Assembly (NCBI GenBank): GCA_003202005.1
Contig: QJJF01000001.1
Coordinates: forward strand, 279,099-343,098
Direction: 5' to 3'
Origin: Williamsia faeni
GTDB taxonomy: Bacteria; Actinomycetota; Actinomycetes; Mycobacteriales; Mycobacteriaceae
DNA length: 64,000 nt
The number at the start of each line of letters is the position of its first letter. Position 1 is the stretch's first letter. Positions 16,789 to 26,357 of the stretch are shown here, one piece after another. A model generated the notes under the pieces. The model had not been told where the DNA came from and made no database searches. It saw only the letters and a program-made list of their open reading frames with translations. The translations under genes were made by a program, and so were the position numbers.

Positions 16789-16846
16789 CCACCCGTTTTT
16801 GCATCGTCCACCAACAATTTCCGGTGGACGATGCAAATTCGGGTGG
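16789..16846. repeat. Palindromic repeat family B, copy 1 (58 nt)
   Basis: Arms of 24 nt (CCACCCGTTTTTGCATCGTC... and its partner) pair with two mismatches around a 10-nt centre. The right 26 nt are identical to the second copy at 17880-17937, and both copies are exactly 58 nt in the same orientation. The two copies flank the DUF559-type gene. Confidence 0.85.
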
Positions 16847-16863
16847 CGGGGGACCGTCTGGGG

Positions 16864-17778
16864 TCACAGCACCCCGCCCAACTGCAGGCCTCGGTCGAGC
16901 AGTGCCCGAAAGCGCTGTGGATTCATCAGGTCACTCCACGTCCAACGCATGACGTGAATACCCAACGCGCGCAGGCGGTCTTCCCGATACTTTTCGCGGA
17001 TGACGGCATCTTCGACCGACTCGCCCGGCCGTAGATGCTTCCGGTATTTGTACCGCCCGTCGAACTCACCCACCACGCGGCCGTCCCAGTCGAAATCGGT
17101 GAACCCGATGAGGCCGTCGTCGTCGACAAAAGGGTGTTGCAGTCGTGGCGCAGGCACCTCCGGAAAGCCGAGCATCAGCCCGCGGCTGAGTGATTCTCCC
17201 GGATTCGCGGCCTGCCCGTCGGCCGCCTGAGCCGCGTCACGCAGCGTCGATCCCCCGACGAATCCGTGGAACCGCTGAGCCATCGCCTCGACATCTGCGC
17301 GCTGCACACCGGCGCGTAGACCGGAGTCGAGTATCGCCAACGCGTCGATAAAGTCGCCCTCGCGAGCGACATCGACGACCGTTCGCACCACGGATGTCAC
17401 CCGATGCCCGTTCACCATCACCACGTCGCCGCGATCGACCTCCGCCTCGTGGAGGTGAATCCCCGCGGCCACGCGTCCACCCCAGCGGACGATGAAGTGC
17501 ACTTTGGTGTCGTCCGGCCTGAGCAACGGCAAGTCGTGGACAGCCGCGGCCGATCGATGGCTGATGACCCGCACCTTCGACTTGCCGGCCCGGGCATACA
17601 CGCGTTCGAGGTACTCCGCAGTCGCCGACAGGTCTGGATCGGGTGGCACGTAGACGCCGGCACAACGGCGGATCAGCGCGCCGGACCGAAGCCCGGTACG
17701 GACGGCCTGATCGTTGAGCGCACCGGCCGGCACGAGTTCGGCGCGTCGGAGCAGATGGCGTGGTTCCTGAGGTGTCAT
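16864..17778 (-). CDS. AbiEi-like / DUF559 (Vsr-fold) endonuclease-domain protein
   Basis: 304 residues from the ATG at 17778; the frame is open further up, through the repeat, but that part has no coding character. The N-terminal ~90 residues resemble the winged-helix plus SHRSAAAVHDLPLL region of AbiEi-type proteins. The C-terminal ~100 residues carry a DUF559/Vsr-like PD-(D/E)xK pattern: Glu of GESLSRG, Asp of FTDFDWDG, Glu of VVGEFDGRYKY, then a REKYREDRLRALGIHVMRWTW helix-strand. It is not known whether it cuts DNA. Many actinobacterial genomes carry orphan members. Both ends of the gene face copies of palindrome family B. Confidence 0.75.
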   Translation of the reverse strand: MTPQEPRHLLRRAELVPAGALNDQAVRTGLRSGALIRRCAGVYVPPDPDLSATAEYLERVYARAGKSKVRVISHRSAAAVHDLPLLRPDDTKVHFIVRWGGRVAAGIHLHEAEVDRGDVVMVNGHRVTSVVRTVVDVAREGDFIDALAILDSGLRAGVQRADVEAMAQRFHGFVGGSTLRDAAQAADGQAANPGESLSRGLMLGFPEVPAPRLQHPFVDDDGLIGFTDFDWDGRVVGEFDGRYKYRKHLRPGESVEDAVIREKYREDRLRALGIHVMRWTWSDLMNPQRFRALLDRGLQLGGVL

Positions 17779-17879
17779 GGATCCACCGTGAAAACAGGGT
17801 CGGACAGAACCGGTCGTGCCGCGGGTCATCTGTGGATACTCGCGGAAAGTGTGGATAACCTGCGTAGACGCCGCCCCAC

Positions 17880-17937
17880 CCACCCGTTTTCGCACCGCCC
17901 AGAGACAACTGCCGGTGGACGATGCAAATTCGGGTGG
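17880..17937. repeat. Palindromic repeat family B, copy 2 (58 nt)
   Basis: Same length and orientation as copy 1. The right 26 nt are identical (CCGGTGGACGATGCAAATTC plus six more) while the left arm has diverged (CGCACCGCCC), so the hairpin is weaker. It lies between the divergent DUF559 gene start (17778) and the exporter ATPase start (18006). Confidence 0.82.
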
Positions 17938-18005
17938 GCGGGGCCTCGCAGCTCACGACAGCAGCTGTAAGCCCGACGACAGCGGGCCGGCGCATTGTGT
18001 GCTCC

Positions 18006-19004
18006 ATGAACACACCACTGCATACCGGTGCCCCGGCCATCGAGGCCCACGGACTGGTAAAACACTTCGGTTCCACCAAGGCCGTCGATGGCGTCGACCT
18101 GGTTGTTCCCACAGGATCGGTCTACGGCGTGCTCGGCCCCAACGGGGCCGGAAAGACAACAACCGTCCGAATGCTCGCCACGCTCCTCAAGCCCGACGCC
18201 GGCCAGGCGAAGGTCTTCGGCTACGACGTCGCCACCGATTCGGTCGCCGTGCGATCGATGGTCGGGGTCACCGGCCAGTACGCATCGGTCGACGAGGATC
18301 TGTCGGCAACCGAGAACCTGATCGTCTTCTCCCGGCTGCTCGGTAAGTCCCGCCGCGAATCCCGGATCCGATCCACCGAACTGCTCGAAGAGTTCGGTCT
18401 GACCGAGGCGTCCAAACGCCCTCTCAAGGAGTTCTCCGGCGGTATGCGCCGCCGGCTCGATCTCGCGGCCAGCCTGATCGCCACTCCCCCGCTGCTCTTC
18501 CTCGATGAACCGACCACCGGACTCGATCCGCGGACGCGTTCGCAGATGTGGGACACCATCCGGCAACTGGTCGCCGGCGGCAGCACCGTGCTGCTGACCA
18601 CCCAGTACCTCGATGAGGCCGACCAATTGGCCGACCGCATCGCGGTCATCGACCACGGCCGGGTCATCGCCGACGGCACCGCCGACGAACTCAAGAACTC
18701 CGTCGGATCATCCACCCTGCAGCTCACGCCCGCCGACCGCTCCCTGGCTCCGGCCGCCGCCGCGATCGTCGAACGTGTGCTGTCCGAGCCGGCCACGCTG
18801 AGCCCGGAAGCAGGCCGCATCACCGCACCGATGCTGCGCCCCGACCTTCTCCCCGACGTTCTCATCGCCCTGCGTGAACACGGCATAGCCATCGAGGCGA
18901 TGAACGTTCAAAAGCCAAGTCTCGACGAGGTTTTCCTCACCATCACCGGCAAACCCGCCGACGCCAACGCCCAAGATCCCAGCGCCCAGGAGCATGCAGC
19001 ATGA
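18006..19004 (+). CDS. ABC exporter ATP-binding protein, DrrA type
   Basis: 332 residues, start at ATG 18006. Walker A GPNGAGKTT, signature SGGMRRRLDLAAS, Walker B LLFLDEPTTGLDP and the switch region LLTTQYLDEADQLADRIAVID are all present. The C-terminal ~100 residues form the DrrA-type extension ending in PSLDEVFLTITGK. With the permease that follows (4-nt overlap) it should form an ABC-2 exporter for a hydrophobic drug or lipid. The daunorubicin-resistance subfamily also includes glycolipid exporters of mycobacteria, so the substrate is open. Confidence 0.92.
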   Translation: MNTPLHTGAPAIEAHGLVKHFGSTKAVDGVDLVVPTGSVYGVLGPNGAGKTTTVRMLATLLKPDAGQAKVFGYDVATDSVAVRSMVGVTGQYASVDEDLSATENLIVFSRLLGKSRRESRIRSTELLEEFGLTEASKRPLKEFSGGMRRRLDLAASLIATPPLLFLDEPTTGLDPRTRSQMWDTIRQLVAGGSTVLLTTQYLDEADQLADRIAVIDHGRVIADGTADELKNSVGSSTLQLTPADRSLAPAAAAIVERVLSEPATLSPEAGRITAPMLRPDLLPDVLIALREHGIAIEAMNVQKPSLDEVFLTITGKPADANAQDPSAQEHAA

Positions 19005-19825
19005 CCACAGTCATCGACAAACCGATCACCACCGCCCCGATCAGCACCATGCATCCGGCGACGAGCGTCAGCGTGACCACTGCGATCAAGCAGTCGTTCA
19101 CGATGGGCTACCGCGGGCTCCTCAAGATCCGCCACAACCCGGAACAGCTGTTCGACGTTGTGCTGCAACCGATCATCTTCACGCTGATGTTCACCTACAT
19201 CTTCGGCGGCGCGCTGGCCGGCAGCATTCAGGACTACCTTCCGATCATCATCCCCGGCATCCTGGTTCAGACGGTCATCGTCACCAGCATCGTCACCGGG
19301 ACACAGCTTCGTGAAGACATGGACAAAGGTGTCTTCGACCGGTTCCGGTCGCTGCCCATCGCCCGGATCAGTCCGCTGGCCGGGGCATTGCTCGCCGACG
19401 TGATCCGGTATCTGATCGCCACGACCATCACCTTTGTCGTCGGCATCGCGATGGGCTGGCGACCTGACGCCCTCGGTGTCATCGGGGCGACCTTGCTGGT
19501 CATCGTCTGCAGCTTCGCGGTCTCCTGGATCTTCGCTTTCATGGGAACCGTCATGAAGAAAGCTTCGGCAGTACAGGGTGTTTCGATGCTCATCCTGTTT
19601 CCGCTGACGTTCATGTCGAATGCGTTTGTCGAGCCGGCGACGATGCCCGGCTGGATGCAGACGTTCGTCAAGTTCAACCCCATCTCGCACCTGGTGACGG
19701 CGGTTCGCGAACTGACAAACAACGGACATGTGGGCATTCACGTCCTGTGGTCACTGGTCGGCGCCGCGCTCATCATTGCGATCATGGCCCCGATCACCGT
19801 GAAGTCCTACATGCGCAACGCCTGA
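19001..19825 (+). CDS. ABC-2 exporter permease, DrrB type
   Basis: 274 residues, six membrane segments, start overlapping the ATPase gene by four bases. Family features are the NPEQLFDVVLQPIIFTLMFTYIFGG first helix, the GTQLREDMDKGVFDRFRSLPIAR coupling helix and FNPISHLVTAVRELT before the last helix. Partner of the ATPase at 18006. The stop lies one base from the stop of the convergent giant regulator gene. Confidence 0.92.
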   Translation: MTTVIDKPITTAPISTMHPATSVSVTTAIKQSFTMGYRGLLKIRHNPEQLFDVVLQPIIFTLMFTYIFGGALAGSIQDYLPIIIPGILVQTVIVTSIVTGTQLREDMDKGVFDRFRSLPIARISPLAGALLADVIRYLIATTITFVVGIAMGWRPDALGVIGATLLVIVCSFAVSWIFAFMGTVMKKASAVQGVSMLILFPLTFMSNAFVEPATMPGWMQTFVKFNPISHLVTAVRELTNNGHVGIHVLWSLVGAALIIAIMAPITVKSYMRNA

Positions 19826-19826
19826 A

Positions 19827-22800
19827 TCAGGCTGCGGCCACGCTGTTTTCCATGATCGACAAGATGTCCTGTACGGCTTGCCGGCGGGACATCTTGTCGA
19901 TCCCGGCGCTCAGCTCCTGCCACTGCGCGTCCGGCACAGCGGCAATCTCCTGACTCCGCTCGCGCACGACCACCAGGGTGGTGTAGTCGAGCCGGGATCC
20001 GACCCGCTCGGCCAGCAGCAACAGCCGGGCTCCCGACATTGATCCGGGATCTCGGCCACTGAGCGCAACTCCGAAAGCCATGGCCATCGCACCCAATTGC
20101 GGGAGGTCCGCGAGCCCGCCGCGACTGAACATGGATGCCGCGATCGATCCTAGGTTCGACAGATAACGCCCTGATCCCACGGTGCGTCCCGCCAATGCCA
20201 TCCCACAGACCCCGGTGCTGATCACCATGCCAACAAAGGGATCCTGCGCCGGCGAAGGATGCTCAGACAGCAACAACCGCACCGACCTCTCGAAGAGGTC
20301 GGCGGCCTCGTCGGCGTTGTCTTCCTGCCATTCCAACTCGGCGGCGCCGACCAGGATCGCCGCGGCGATCTCGGGATGGGCGCGGGGGTCGGGATCGGCC
20401 GGCACCCACCCCTCGGCAAAGACGGCAAACTCCTTGCGCGCCTCCTCGATACGCCCCATGCCGACGAGCGCGGCGACGATGTAGCCACGGGTCTGCCGGA
20501 CATCCTGCTCCGATCCGATCATCTCGAGGAGACCCATCGCGCGACGATAGCTCTCGATCGCCATCTCGTACTGAGCCGTCTGGCCATGAAAGCTACCGAT
20601 CTGCATCAGCACACTGGCAGCGATCCACGAGTCATTGTGGGACTCCGCAATACCCAGAGCGATGTCCGCCGCCTGCACCGCACCGCGCCGGTCAGCCATG
20701 TTTTCCCGAGTGTTTGCGGTGAGCAACGCCGCGATCATCCGCACCCGGGAATCAGTACATCTGCCACCGATCACCATCCGGCGCAGTGCACCGAACTTGT
20801 GATGCGCCAACATGATCGACGAGATGAAGTCGAACTGGCATTGATCGGCGAGATCGGCGCGGAAGAGCCGGCGCAACTGCCATCGGGCGATCGCCACGAG
20901 ACGATGGCTGCGGGCCATCAACAGGTGACCACCGGCGATCAGGTACACGGCCTGTCGGTATTCACGCTCGGTGTCGGTCAGCGCGTCCGCGGCCGCCTGA
21001 TCCAGATACGGCAGGACCGCGACAACTCTCGGGGCCCAGGCCATCACCTCGCCGTGCAACCCACGGACTGCCCAGAACCCCGCGATCACCGGGAAACAAG
21101 CGACGATCGTCTGTTCCCAATCCGCCGGGCGCGCAGCCACATCGGGTTCCATGCAGCGGCGCAACACCCAGACCAGATTGTCCACCTCCGCCGATACCGC
21201 CGCCAGCACCGCCGGCTGCTCACCGTTCTCGAAGGGTTCGCGGGCATCGCCGGCAAACGTTCGTGCCCACCGCGCGATGGACGAATTCACCTGCGGCCCT
21301 TCACCCGATGCGATCAGCTGCTCTTCACCGAACTCTCGAACGGTCTCGAGCATGCGGTACCGGACACCGCCGTGTTCAAAAACCTGGAGGAGCGACTGGT
21401 CCACGAGGGCGTCGAGGTCGTCGTCGAGTTCGAGGTCGGTGACTCCCACGACGTCGCGGGCCGCGGCACGCGAGAACCCGCCGGGGAAGCGGCACAATCT
21501 GCGCAACGCGATCCGGGCGGGTTCGTCGAGGAGTTCCCAGCTCCATTCGATGACAGCGTGCAGAGTCCGGTGGCGGACCGGTGACGAACGATCCCCCGTG
21601 CGCAGCAACGCAAATCGTTGCGACAAGCGCTGCGAGATCTCGGCAACGCCCATCGTCCGGACCCGCGCCGCAGCCAACTCTATGGCCAGCGGCAACCCGT
21701 CGAGCGCTCGGCACAGATCAGCGACTTCAGTGTTGTCGATGGCCACGTCCGGCCGGATCGCCCGGGCCCGCGCGGTGAACAAATCCGTTGCGGCCGAACC
21801 ATACTCGTCGATGGACAGCGGTGGAAGCTGATGGATCACCTCGGCGTTGACACGCAGCGGTGATCGACTGGTGGTCAGGATCCGAACATTCTCGGACATT
21901 CCGATGAGTTCGGACGCCACCCGGGCACAGGCGTCGACCACATGTTCACAGTTGTCGAAGATGACCAACGTCTCCGACGTCAGCGCGTCGGCGAGGCGGG
22001 TCTGCAGATCCGAAAAGGCCAGGCGCGGACGACCTCCGAGCCCGACATCGGATTCGCCGACACCGAGCGTTCCCGCCACGGCCGCGACGACGTCGTCCTC
22101 ACCCCGCACAGAAGCGAGCTCGACGAAGAACACCCGCACACCGTCGTCGGCGATCAGATGCCCGATCAGGTTGGCGACGCGCGTCTTACCGGCACCTCCG
22201 GGTCCCTGGATCGTCACCACTCTCGATGTGCGGAGCAGCGAACAGATGCGGCTGATGTCGGCTTCGCGACCCAGGAGTTCATTCGGCTCGGCGGACAACC
22301 CGACCGACATCACGCGGCCGACCTCACGTGGCCGCTCGACCGGCGTCGGCTGCAACAACTGTTCGTGAAGGGCCACAACCTCCGGCCCCGGGTCGGCGCC
22401 GAGTTCGGTGGACAATGTCCGGCGCAGACGCGCGAACACCGCCAGCGCCTCGGCACTTCGCCCCAGCGCCGCCAACGCCCGCATCAGGGTGGCGTGCGCC
22501 GACTCGTCCAGCGGGTCGGCATCGGCTCTCCGCTGGGCCAAGGCCCGTGCGGTCTCGAAATCTCCGTCGTCCAGTGCCTTCTGCGACCGGCGTTCGTCGA
22601 GTTCGACCTGCACACGGTCGGCGGCCTGCCGAACATCACGGGCGAGGTCGTCGTCGCCGAGATCGTCACCGGGTGCCCCGCGCCAGAGTCGGGCGGCCGC
22701 CTCGAGCGACTGCGCCGAACCATCGGCGAGCAACGACTGAGCAGTGAATACGTCGACGGCGACCGCCGGTAGCGTCAGCCGATAACCGGCCGGGCCGGCC

Positions 22801-23060
22801 TCGATGGCGCCCTCGGGCAGCAGTGGACGAAGTCGGGATATCTGGGTGTGCAGGGCCGACTGAGGCGATCGCGGAAGGTCGTCGCCCCAGACACCGTCGA
22901 TGAGGGCAGACTGCGACCGCTGACTGCCCGGAGTCAGCGCAAGGACCGCCAGCAGACGCCGAGCCCGGATTCCGGGTACCGGTCGCATTCGTCCGTTTTC
23001 GTCGGCTATCGAAACCGGTCCGAGTAGTCCGACGATCGGATCTCCTGCGGCAGGCGGCAC
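19827..23060 (-). CDS. AfsR/SARP-family regulator with NB-ARC ATPase (BTAD-STAND protein)
   Basis: 1,077 residues from GTG 23060, chosen because GAGGAAA sits just upstream. Domain order: winged-helix DNA-binding region (about 5-95, [14 protein letters not shown]...[24 protein letters not shown]); bacterial activation domain BTAD (about 95-240, [33 protein letters not shown]). Next an NB-ARC-type STAND ATPase with Walker [10 protein letters not shown] (~285), Walker [11 protein letters not shown] (~360) and [12 protein letters not shown] (~455). A long helical TPR-like C-terminus follows. Such proteins activate secondary-metabolite or lipid genes on nucleotide and ligand binding. The convergent DrrAB exporter and divergent menA are its neighbours; its targets are unknown. 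Confidence 0.88.
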
Positions 23061-23209
23061 ATTTTCCTCGCAACTCGTGGGCAGATTCGATGCAAAACTG
23101 CAGGTCAGTATTACTCGCAACAGCCTATCTCTCATGCGACACGGAGCGGAGCCAGACCAAGTGCAGGGGCCTGGGCACGGGCGAGAGCCGGTGCGCAAGG
23201 ATGACTCTC

Positions 23210-24079
23210 ATGGCTTCCGCAGCGCAGTGGTTCGAAGGTTCCCGGCCCCGCACGTATCCCAACGCGATCGCGCCGGTCATCGCCGGCACCGGTGCGGCCG
23301 GCTGGGTCGGTGACATCGTGTGGTGGAAAGCCGCGCTGGCCCTGGTGGTGGCGCTGGCGTTGATCATCGGCGTGAACTTCGCCAACGACTACTCCGACGG
23401 CATCCGCGGGACCGACGATGTACGGGTCGGCCCGATGCGGCTCGTCGGCTCCAAGGTGGCCACCCCGAAATCGGTGAAGACCGCGGCGATGACAGCCCTG
23501 GCCGTGGCCGGGATCGCCGGGTTGGTGCTTGCGTTGACAAGCGCCTGGTGGCTGATCCTGGTGGGCCTGGCCTGCATCGTCGCGGCCTGGTATTACACCG
23601 GTGGCCGAAACCCTTACGGGTACAGCGGTTTCGGTGAGATTTCTGTGTTTGTGTTCTTCGGCCTGGTGGCTGTTCTCGGCACGCAGTTCGTCCAGGCCGA
23701 GAAGGTCGATTGGGTCGGCTTGCTCGCCGCGGTCGCCGTGGGTTGTTACTCCAGTGGAGTTCTGGTGGCCAACAACCTCCGCGACATCCCCACCGACACC
23801 GAGTCGGGGAAGGTGACACTTGCGGTTCGGTTGGGCGACAAGCGAACTCGAGTGCTTCACACTGCGCTCGTGGTGATTCCGTCACTGGTCAGCCTCGCGC
23901 TTGTCGCGGCCACCCCGTGGGCATTGCTCGGCTTGATCTCGGCCCCGTTGGCGTACAAGGCCAACGCACCGGTTCGTGCCGGTGCCGGCGGACCAGCGTT
24001 GATACCCGCACTCGCCCTCACCGGCCTCGCGATGCTTCTCTGGTCAATCGGCACCGCCATCGGCCTGCAGCTCGCCTAG
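23210..24079 (+). CDS. menA: 1,4-dihydroxy-2-naphthoate polyprenyltransferase
   Basis: 289-residue UbiA-family membrane enzyme that prenylates dihydroxynaphthoate to demethylmenaquinone. ATG 23210 is preferred to ATG 23201 because AAGGA lies eight bases before it. The two Asp-rich prenyl-diphosphate sites are seen: [15 protein letters not shown] near residue 50 and [14 protein letters not shown] near 185. Eight to nine membrane helices. Its place near menB and menE matches the mycobacterial map. Its stop is 14 nt from palindrome A1. Confidence 0.94.
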
Positions 24080-24093
24080 CCCTGACCCCGCAC

Positions 24094-24160
24094 CCCGATG
24101 ATGTGCCCTTATGGCGGAGCCCACCTGGGCTTTTGTTCGCCATAAGGGCACATTTTCGGG
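24094..24160. repeat. Palindromic repeat family A, copy 1 (67 nt)
   Basis: Starts CCCGATGATGTGCC; the right end (GGCACATTTTCGGG) has two changes from consensus. Built as 19-nt arm, 29-nt asymmetric core, 19-nt arm. The core (24113-24141) is exactly the reverse complement of the core of copy 3 (26310-26338). It fills the gap between menA and the convergent Clp_N gene, whose stop codon starts at the next base. Confidence 0.9.
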
Positions 24161-24961
24161 TTAGCTGGTGGCTGCCTGCTGGACGGCGTCGCGGAGCGCG
24201 TCGGGGGTGGTGGCCGATTCGATGAGCGCCTTGGAGGCGGCATCGCCGGTGGTCAGGATTCCCAGGAGGACGTCCTCTGCGATCAGGTCGCGGTCTGCGG
24301 CCCGGGCGATGATTGCCGCCTGGGTGATCGCCGACTTGGCGTCCAGGGAGAACCGGGGCCGGCGCATGCCACCCCGCGGTCCCCGGCGGCCTCGGCCACC
24401 TTCCCACGGTCCGCGGTCATCGCCTTCGCGCTCCCAAGGAGGCGGGCCCTCACCTTCGGGACCTTCCCAGGGACCTGACCAGAGTCCGTTCGGTCCCCCG
24501 CGTCCGAATGGTCCGCCGCGTCCGCGTGGTCCGCCATGTTCGTGTGGACCGCCATGTTCGTGTGGTCCGCGGCGTCCGTGTGGTCCGCCGCGTCCGCGTC
24601 CGTCCCGACCGCCGCGGCGTTTGCCCCAGTTGTCGGTGATGTCGTCGCCGAATGCGGATTTGACCGCCGCGCGAACCTTGTCGAGATCGATTCCGATGGC
24701 CGCGAGGGCGTCCCGGTCTTCATCGACGCGATCTTTGTCCGCGTCGGTCTTGTTGGCCTCGTGGTACTCACGTACCACTTCGCGGGCCTGAGTCAGGGTC
24801 AAACCCTGCTCACCGAGGATGTTGAACACCGAACTCCGGGCGTTGCAGAGCATGCCGAGGATGAGGTGGTCGTTGCCGAGTGTGGTGTGACCGAGGTCGG
24901 CTGCCTCCTGATAAGCGAAAACCAGGGTCATCCTGTTTTCGCGAGTGAACTGGTGAAACAT
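24161..24961 (-). CDS. Clp N-terminal domain protein with a long Gly/Pro/His/Arg linker
   Basis: 266 residues. Residues 1-75 are a first Clp_N repeat (MFHQFTRENRMTLVFAYQEAADLGHTTLGNDHLILGML); residues ~205-266 are the second (AKSAITQAAIIARAADRDLIAEDVLLGIL). In ClpC/ClpA these form one domain that binds substrates or adaptors. Here they are split by ~90 residues of GGP/GRG-type low complexity, including HEHGGP units. There is no AAA+ ATPase domain, so it cannot be an unfoldase by itself; an adaptor or decoy for Clp is an inference. It is in an operon with the HTH gene 32 nt upstream. The linker DNA is an in-frame minisatellite. Confidence 0.8.
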   Translation of the reverse strand: MFHQFTRENRMTLVFAYQEAADLGHTTLGNDHLILGMLCNARSSVFNILGEQGLTLTQAREVVREYHEANKTDADKDRVDEDRDALAAIGIDLDKVRAAVKSAFGDDITDNWGKRRGGRDGRGRGGPHGRRGPHEHGGPHEHGGPRGRGGPFGRGGPNGLWSGPWEGPEGEGPPPWEREGDDRGPWEGGRGRRGPRGGMRRPRFSLDAKSAITQAAIIARAADRDLIAEDVLLGILTTGDAASKALIESATTPDALRDAVQQAATS

Positions 24962-24993
24962 GTTGTCTCGCTTCCTGATGTGGAACGCGGCGG

Positions 24994-25209
24994 CTATTCG
25001 CCGCGTGAATGCTTTTGGTGCACGGCTTGACGGCTCACCTGCAGTACGTCGGCGATTGCCTGCCAGCTCCAGCCTTGTTGCCGGGCATTGGCGACCTGTA
25101 CGTCTTCGAGCCGATCGGCCAACGTTCGCAGTGCCCTGACCGCTGCCAGCCCTTTGGCCGGATCACGATCTGCAACTGCTGCGGTGATGTCTTCTTTGTT
25201 GTCTTGCAC
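24994..25209 (-). CDS. Small HTH transcriptional regulator, probably leaderless
   Basis: 71 residues from GTG 25209 (an ATG 13 codons upstream lies inside the promoter). The C-terminal half is an HTH: RQQGWSWQAIADVLQVSRQAVHQKHSRGE. The preceding AAVRALRTLADRLEDVQVANA helix may dimerise. A canonical -35/-10 pair at 25217-25245 predicts a transcript starting within a few bases of the GTG, so the mRNA would have no leader, common in actinobacteria. The palindrome in the promoter spacer suggests autorepression. First gene of the HTH-Clp_N operon. Confidence 0.7.
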   Translation of the reverse strand: MQDNKEDITAAVADRDPAKGLAAVRALRTLADRLEDVQVANARQQGWSWQAIADVLQVSRQAVHQKHSRGE

Positions 25210-25216
25210 GATTGTC

Positions 25217-25245
25217 AAGTTACCCTGACACGCTGCGCGTGTCAA
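25217..25245 (-). promoter_or_regulatory. Sigma-70-type promoter with palindromic operator in the spacer
   Basis: On the minus strand TTGACA (25245-25240) and TAACTT (25222-25217) are 17 nt apart. Across the -35 and spacer lies TGACACGC-GCA-GCGTGTCA (25244-25226), a perfect 8-bp inverted repeat. A repressor bound there would block RNA polymerase; the HTH protein encoded just downstream is the obvious candidate. Confidence 0.75.
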
Positions 25246-25273
25246 CATTTATTGACAACAGAATCCGAGGCAC

Positions 25274-25340
25274 CCCGATGATGTGCCCATTTGGCGAGCA
25301 AAAGGCCAGGTCAGCACCGCCAGAAGGGCACATCATCGGG
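25274..25340. repeat. Palindromic repeat family A, copy 2 (67 nt)
   Basis: Perfect outer 14-bp arms (CCCGATGATGTGCC / GGCACATCATCGGG) around a 29-nt core at 25293-25321. Its orientation is the same as copy 3 and opposite to copies 1 and 4. It ends one base before the stop codon of the DUF559 gene. Confidence 0.9.
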
Positions 25341-25364
25341 TTTAGGCGGCATCGGGTTTAGGCG
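25334..25364. repeat. 16-nt-period tandem duplication at the repeat/DUF559 junction
   Basis: CATCGGGTTTAGGCG occurs at 25334-25348 and again at 25350-25364. The first copy is the end of palindrome A2, the second encodes the last residues of the DUF559 protein. The stop codon lies in the first copy. It may be a slippage product or a target-site-type duplication. Confidence 0.8.
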
Positions 25365-26223
25365 TCCAGCCGCGGAGGGTGAGCTCGCGACGGAGCTGCT
25401 CGACGAACTCGTCGCGGCCGCTTCTGATGTTCTGAGCGGTGACCGTGATGACCACCCAGCCGGCAGCCCGCAGCCGGTTCCACCGTTCGAGATCTCGGGC
25501 GTGCTGTTCGCTGCTGCGATGATGTTCGCCGTCGTACTCGACAGCGACCAACAGATGTGGCCAGGCGGCATCGAGTCGGTATCGACCGCCCATGACCTCG
25601 TGTTGCAGAACGAACCCGTGGAAGCCTTCGTCGACGAGAATGAGTCGCACCCGGGTCTCCCACGGCGACTCCGACAGCGGATCGACCAGCTTGAACGCAG
25701 TGATCGCCTTGCCGATTCCCCAGTGTCGTTCCCACCACTTCAACGCGCGTCTGACGTCCTCCAACAGGCCTGGATGGCGGCGGGCCAACGAGTCCAGGGC
25801 GGAAACAGCATCGTCGCGAGAGTTGAACCGCCCCAAGTCAATTGCCGTTCGAGCCAGGGTGGTCACCAACGATCCGTTGATCCCGGTGTATTCGTTCTCG
25901 TCGATCTGTAGGCGACGCACCTTGATGCCACGGAACTGGCGACCATTGATCGGCACGATGACCTCGGGCAGCGCGCCTTCGGGACGATAAGCGTTGCCCC
26001 ACAGGTCGGCCGCCGACCACCCGCACAGGATGCCCGGCAGATCCTTGTCGCCTCCCGGATACGCCAGACCGGCGGCAAAGCTCAACATCGTGAAGTCGAC
26101 GACCTGGTCAGCTCGAACCCAGACACCACGAAACAGAATCCGGTAGTTCTCGCGCAGTTGATAGCGCGACATCACAGCAAGCAGTTCTTCGGCCCGCATC
26201 GGGCCTGTTGGCAATTCCCCCAT
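25342..26223 (-). CDS. AbiEi-like / DUF559 (Vsr-fold) endonuclease-domain protein
   Basis: 293 residues from ATG 26223. The N-terminal region has the AbiEi-like layout (a helix-turn segment, FRGVWVRADQVVDF, then a GWSAADLWG helix). The C-terminal ~100 residues are a clear DUF559/PD-(D/E)xK nuclease pattern: Glu in PWETRVRLIL, Asp in YRLDAAWPH, Glu and Asp in VAVEYDGEHHR, and the RDLERWNRLRAAGWVVITVT helix-strand. It is only distantly like the protein at 16864 but has the same two-part plan. The gene lies between family A palindromes 2 and 3, which are in direct orientation, and its last codons lie within a duplicated repeat end. Enzyme activity is unproven. Confidence 0.78.
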   Translation of the reverse strand: MGELPTGPMRAEELLAVMSRYQLRENYRILFRGVWVRADQVVDFTMLSFAAGLAYPGGDKDLPGILCGWSAADLWGNAYRPEGALPEVIVPINGRQFRGIKVRRLQIDENEYTGINGSLVTTLARTAIDLGRFNSRDDAVSALDSLARRHPGLLEDVRRALKWWERHWGIGKAITAFKLVDPLSESPWETRVRLILVDEGFHGFVLQHEVMGGRYRLDAAWPHLLVAVEYDGEHHRSSEQHARDLERWNRLRAAGWVVITVTAQNIRSGRDEFVEQLRRELTLRGWTPKPDAA

Positions 26224-26290
26224 ACCGACACCGAACACATCCACACCGACCGAAGCCGCGCCACAACCCCAGGTTATCCACAGCCCAGAA

Positions 26291-26357
26291 CCCGATGATG
26301 TGCCGTTCTGGCGAACAAAAGCCCAGGTGGGCTCCGCCAAAACAGCACATCATCGGG
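26291..26357. repeat. Palindromic repeat family A, copy 3 (67 nt)
   Basis: Arms as in copy 2; core at 26310-26338 identical over all 29 positions to the inverted core of copy 1. It lies 67 nt upstream of the DUF559 start and 17 nt from the stop of the ABC permease gene. Confidence 0.9.

Follow-up and report, generated by a model that had tools for sequence, protein, structure and literature searches.

The question raised by this locus is whether a nuclease-fold protein can stand to a bacterial palindrome as a REP-associated tyrosine transposase (RAYT) stands to a repetitive extragenic palindrome (REP). It concerns a 64,000-nt stretch of Williamsia faeni DNA (contig QJJF01000001.1, positions 279,099 to 343,098; hereafter the window), in which two genes for predicted nucleases, here called A and B, each lie between two copies of a palindrome. 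The first-pass annotation of the window had proposed a RAYT/REP-like pairing of each nuclease-fold protein with its own repeat family. That pairing is strongly supported by bracketing over controls and by the co-divergence of protein and repeat, and further by the dispersal of family A in all nine Williamsia genomes compared (G000-G008), by the presence of more than two sites, among the matches listed, for 14 of 28 gene-flanking repeats, and by an N-terminal difference between the two types of protein A. The linkage of AbiEi-Vsr-fold nuclease genes to private bracketing repeats is real and widespread, and it is undescribed in the literature searched. The elements are as follows, in window coordinates.

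16789..16846, no strand: family B palindrome downstream of gene B, at 17 nt from the stop codon, with 24-nt arms 92% complementary
16864..17778, minus strand: gene B, 304 aa, predicted AbiEi-like module plus Vsr/I-Bth0305I-like nuclease domain
17880..17937, no strand: imperfect family B palindrome upstream of gene B, at 101 nt from the start codon
24094..24160, no strand: family A palindrome abutting the stop of the Clp_N gene and, with the 25274 copy, enclosing the Clp_N and HTH genes
25274..25340, no strand: family A palindrome downstream of gene A, at 1 nt from the stop codon
25342..26223, minus strand: gene A, 293 aa, predicted AbiEi-like module plus DUF559/Vsr-fold nuclease
26291..26357, no strand: family A palindrome upstream of gene A, at 67 nt from the start codon
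47805..47871, no strand: solo family A palindrome away from the nuclease gene

Both genes and all six palindromes were re-found at the positions given for them earlier, and for both families the gene does lie between copies of its own palindrome. Family B copies are 58 nt long and family A copies 67 nt, and the two copies flanking gene B have 26 nt of arm exactly identical. At a cut for long hairpins of span >=46 nt and score >=14, the window holds eight hairpins, five of them in families A and B, and 20 dinucleotide shuffles of the window yielded one such hairpin altogether; the right-hand B copy (17880) falls below the cut. Three A copies stand in a row at 24094-26357, bracketing Clp_N and a small HTH gene and then the nuclease gene.

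The predicted fold of the proteins is an AbiEi half followed by a Vsr-like nuclease with conserved acidic residues, and their fold relatives include restriction enzymes. The N-terminal part is matched by PADLOC AbiEi models. Protein A scores above the Pfam cut-off for DUF559 (PF04480) and near that for REase_MTES_1575 (PF18741). Protein B gave no meaningful match in the Pfam scan and is grouped with the Vsr/DUF559 kind by its predicted fold. Pfam scans of the proteins returned no transposase family, and the predicted fold is not of the HUH/tyrosine IS200/IS605 type. Six window neighbours were also scanned with Pfam, and among them there was no DUF1814 nucleotidyltransferase toxin, nor any other partner toxin or modification gene. 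The neighbouring ABC ATPase matches AAA_21, and AbiEii appears merely in the title of that model.

The bracket extends well beyond the window. Its genome contains several relatives of these nuclease genes, and of ten loci scanned there palindromes were found at A, B and four more genes (L042, L047, L048 and L049), with no long hairpin at L043, L044 or L045, which are more distant DUF559 matches. A profile search of the nine Williamsia genomes gave 72 matches (5 to 12 per genome), and a matching flank pair was present in 50 of the 65 genes encoding at least 230 aa; the seven shorter proteins were excluded from the protein-repeat comparison described below. Outside this set, GTDB genomes were searched for a repeat common to the 260 nt upstream of the gene and the 210 nt round its stop, the cut being the 99th percentile of 364 mismatched pairs. 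From 80 loci, 15 in or near the nine-genome set and two lacking a flank were removed, leaving 63 genes, several of which share a species; 47 of the 63 were bracketed, compared with 2 of 61 neighbour genes. Strict hairpins (score >=13) on both sides were found at 16 of the 63 relatives and at 0 of the 61 neighbours. Bracketed hosts included Gordonia, Rhodococcus, Tomitella, Skermania, Pseudonocardia, Nakamurella, Geodermatophilus, Modestobacter and Microlunatus. In the middle half of the 47 genes the upstream copy ends 70-121 nt before the start codon and the downstream copy starts -2 to 19 nt from the stop.

In a class-wide sample the profile (E 1e-25) was found in 101 of 148 genomes. Forty genomes were hand-picked from the upper portion of these 101 and one best gene taken from each; one lacked a flank, and a bracket was present in 37 of the other 39 at the same cut and in 35 at a stricter one. 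None of 10 control genes (a small set) was bracketed, and mismatched pairs passed in 8 of 307 cases, or 4 of 307 at the stricter cut. Many of the class-wide repeats are clearly inverted and less palindromic. What holds generally is a repeat of about 55-95 nt on either side of the gene; in many relatives of the window genes it takes the form of a near-perfect palindrome. Direct orientation of the flanking copies, reported earlier for both window pairs, is correct for those two and fails as a rule, since direct orientation is favoured at 53 and inverted orientation at 57 of the 139 genes with a bracket.

The palindrome link belongs to the AbiEi-fused subfamily and not to DUF559 at large, in which a lenient test found a bracket in 13 of 30 genes. 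The first-pass annotation had offered a lack of flanking palindromes at most DUF559 homologues as evidence that would count against its proposal; this applies in part, to the wider family and to L043-L045. One protein clade (L110, L112 and L115) carries tandem units of ~21 nt ahead of the gene in place of a palindrome. Copies of nuclease genes split into two frames or carrying a stop were seen at G008:C5:4602051-4602952, G006:C54:54464-55287 and G004:C19:545507, and such genes therefore decay.

Protein and repeat diverge together. Similar repeats accompany 38 of 39 protein pairs at >=80% identity, 33 of 105 at 60-80% and 2 of 3957 below 60%, although shared ancestry by itself raises the upper bins of this comparison. 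Gene A occupies the same locus in 9/9 Williamsia genomes, and its alleles have either A-like or A-prime palindromes on both flanks, depending on the genome. When alleles were compared in 30-column blocks, G005 (A) and G003 (A-prime) were 56, 44, 59 and 37% alike over the first 120 columns and 80, 70, 76, 80, 80 and 62% thereafter. The corresponding values for G005 and G000 (both A) were 76, 76, 93 and 55%, then 86, 83, 83, 86, 76 and 75%, and for G003 and G001 (both A-prime) 66, 55, 74 and 76%, then 80, 76, 80, 80, 83 and 56%. The two protein types are least alike over the N-terminal half, and the alignments point at this AbiEi-like half as the putative reader of the repeat, although it is also the faster-evolving half within a type.

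The suggestion that solo A copies elsewhere in the genome belong to a dispersed family agrees with the genome searches. A one-arm pattern of family A gave 132 matches in the window's genome, compared with 13 for the reversed control. A family A covariance model (E 0.01) gave 95, 128, 53, 61, 131, 52, 139, 130 and 46 matches in G000 to G008, respectively, where at most 150 candidates were scored per genome and one place may match on both strands, so that distinct copies are fewer; at least 32 distinct family A places were present in G000 among the matches listed. An A-prime model, whose matches overlap with those of the A model, gave 47-137 in each of the nine genomes. Copies of both types were read in G000-G008, the A-like copies of G004 being a GGG variant. 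After exclusion of the 7 of 60 loci that flank gene A, 36 of the remaining 53, some of which are the same site in different genomes, lay between convergent genes, against a background of 128 of 637 adjacent pairs (simple gene calls); 22 of the 36 were within 5 nt of the left stop and 20 within 5 nt of the right stop. The 28 gene-flanking repeats were searched in 23 genomes, and the largest number of sites among the matches listed was 16, in Nakamurella silvestris. The tabulated rows of this search (127 of the matches listed, those omitted being mostly opposite-strand duplicates) included none in a foreign genome.

Turnover at individual sites was followed by comparing 111-240 kb of four close genomes (G002, G003, G005 and G008). 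At a site 3' of a putative acyltransferase gene, whose function is a guess, G002 has a single A and G008 a single A-prime. In G003 and G005 two A copies stand there, separated by about 577 nt that hold a frame of ~180 codons; the flanks of the site are 94-98% alike. Beside Clp_N, where the flanks are 87-94% alike, and at the two copies bracketing gene A, type A is found in G005 and A-prime in the other three genomes. At such fixed sites the palindromes are swapped in type. Two further copies, that of G003 in L269 and that of G005 in L284 at 11546, face counterparts without a full palindrome in the stretches inspected, and the remaining compared copies are conserved or have no two-sided counterpart. 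The enclosed frame lies at G003:C2:490463-491173 (L271) and G005:C4:15680-16390 (L284), and the G003 protein had no NCBIfam match.

With moderate confidence, we consider the best explanation to be a RAYT/REP-like partnership built on an unrelated nuclease that acts on its own repeats. The bracket, its generality, the gene-specific repeats, the co-divergence, the dispersal of some families, the type swaps and the conserved acidic residues are read from sequence, and the folds are predicted. In the proposed mechanism, the N-terminal AbiEi-type module would read the arms of the gene's own 58-80-nt repeat and the predicted Vsr-like nuclease domain at the C-terminus would nick or cut at that point. 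Repair of the break or nick from another copy would keep the two bracketing copies alike, would spread or replace copies at other sites, chiefly in the gaps between convergent genes, and could allow genes between two copies to be gained or lost. The bracket would hold the nuclease gene in linkage with its target sites. The 23-24-nt arms of family A would fit AbiEi-type reading of 23-bp repeats.

Several observations weigh against this explanation. Both A-like and A-prime copies are also found where the resident gene A belongs to the opposite type, and 14 of the 28 flanking repeats have no more than two sites among the matches listed, while extra sites of the others may flank other nuclease genes. 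Pairing within family A copies hardly exceeds that of shuffles and covariation is weak, with no sign of selection for the hairpin itself. Over the first 120 columns even two proteins of one type, the A-prime proteins of G003 and G001, agree at only 55-76%, so the N-terminal half also evolves faster in its own right. The genomes compared offered no case of a lone palindrome cleanly inserted into an otherwise empty site. Gene B is present in 3/9 Williamsia genomes, and in the other six its site holds neither the gene nor a B palindrome (inspection covered 469 nt in G001 and 1300 nt in the rest). The bracketing signal is also absent in 16 of the 63 relatives outside Williamsia.

The main rival is operator and terminator use. 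Here the upstream copy would be an AbiEi-type operator and the downstream copy a terminator, the nuclease would serve an unrelated role, and the dispersed copies would be bidirectional terminators or regulon sites. We regard autoregulation and termination alone as unlikely. In its favour, AbiEi and Rv2827c are described as binding 23-bp inverted repeats in their own promoters (PMC7319586), the bracketing copies are spaced as an operator and a terminator might be, and solo copies sit chiefly between convergent stops, which is terminator territory. Against it, an operator and a terminator have no need to resemble each other at every gene, nor do these roles call for one palindrome type to replace another wholesale at fixed sites whose flanks are conserved, and the covariation expected of an RNA terminator stem is lacking from the pairing. 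A defence nuclease, with palindromes as self-marks or inactivating hold sites and with specificity alleles diversifying as in restriction systems, would account for the PADLOC matches, the restriction enzymes among the fold relatives and the two specificity alleles at one locus; it is nevertheless improbable, as the six scanned neighbours include no partner toxin or modification gene, no relative of B was found on phages at the limits used, and gene A keeps one locus in 9/9 genomes.

The least probable account, to which we give little credence, is an ordinary mobile element in which the gene is a transposase, the palindromes are its ends and the solo copies are short non-autonomous forms. Target-site duplications at 139 genes numbered 9 against 8.4 expected at 4 nt, 4 against 2.4 at 5 nt and 2 against 0.7 at 6 nt, with none at 7 and 8 nt, which is no clear excess, although element ends were set by alignment and old duplications may have decayed. 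The best paralogue pairs within each of the nine Williamsia genomes are 43-82% alike, so that no recent copies are evident there. Relatives of B were found, at the limits used, in 3 of 72,556 plasmid records and 0 of 50,697 phage records. Gene A holds a single locus, and the empty B sites lack a palindrome. The absence of a clear duplication excess, the rarity of plasmid and phage relatives, the paralogue divergence, the weak covariation and the copies unmatched to the resident allele argue against a free-moving transposon; a resident gene with slowly turning-over repeats fits. The three plasmids are from Tsukamurella tyrosinosolvens, and in one the relative lies within a gene annotated as an AbiEi-family antitoxin.

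A partnership of nuclease and repeat resembles RAYT/REP in that the gene lies between two copies of its own repeat, which is dispersed in some families, in that repeat and protein co-diverge, and in that gene A has a single locus; RAYTs are described as always flanked by two inverted REPs (PMC2817692) and as single-copy, mostly tracking the species tree at the species level (PMC3116915). It differs in having an AbiEi-Vsr-fold fusion in place of an HUH tyrosine transposase, and repeats of about 55-95 nt whose pair orientation is not fixed. The HUH enzyme and the inverted pair are both defining features of a RAYT; the system fails on each and so is not one. The N-terminal half shares its predicted fold with AbiEi of the type IV AbiE system (6y8q) and with Rv2827c (1zel), but here a nuclease domain follows, no DUF1814 toxin is adjacent in the window, and copies of the repeat are found downstream of the gene and at other places too. 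Vsr endonuclease and the homing endonuclease I-Bth0305I (3r3p) share the predicted nuclease fold and the conserved acidic residues; unlike theirs, the gene is not inserted within its supposed target and has repeat copies on each side. It is also unlike DUF559 (PF04480) at large, many genes of which are without a bracket. No paper tying DUF559, PF18741 or AbiEi-nuclease genes to palindromes was present among the matches listed, the scope of which left out subscription papers and bioRxiv.

A broader proposal is more tentative: that these genes form an undescribed actinobacteria-wide class, selfish or domesticated, in which AbiEi-Vsr nucleases drive private palindromes by break-induced copying, recognition alleles and palindromes swap together, and convergent gene ends serve as docking sites for gene gain and loss. 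If true, it would be a second, independently evolved way for dispersed bacterial palindromes to have their own enzyme, with a nuclease fold newly tied to palindromes as far as the literature found extends. It would also give a role to a gene family present in 101 of 148 sampled class genomes, and would supply numerous natural protein-target pairs from which recognition codes are directly testable.

In G004 and G007 (L204 and L207), gene B is accompanied by a third copy of its palindrome and by ~20 nt repeated from the promoter region of the neighbouring ABC gene, which suggests local duplication on its arrival. The record NZ_JNYV01000004.1, labelled Kitasatospora arboriphila and used here as G005, falls in the genus of the window and, over most stretches compared, matches W. 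muralis genomes at 92-98%; it is probably mislabelled.

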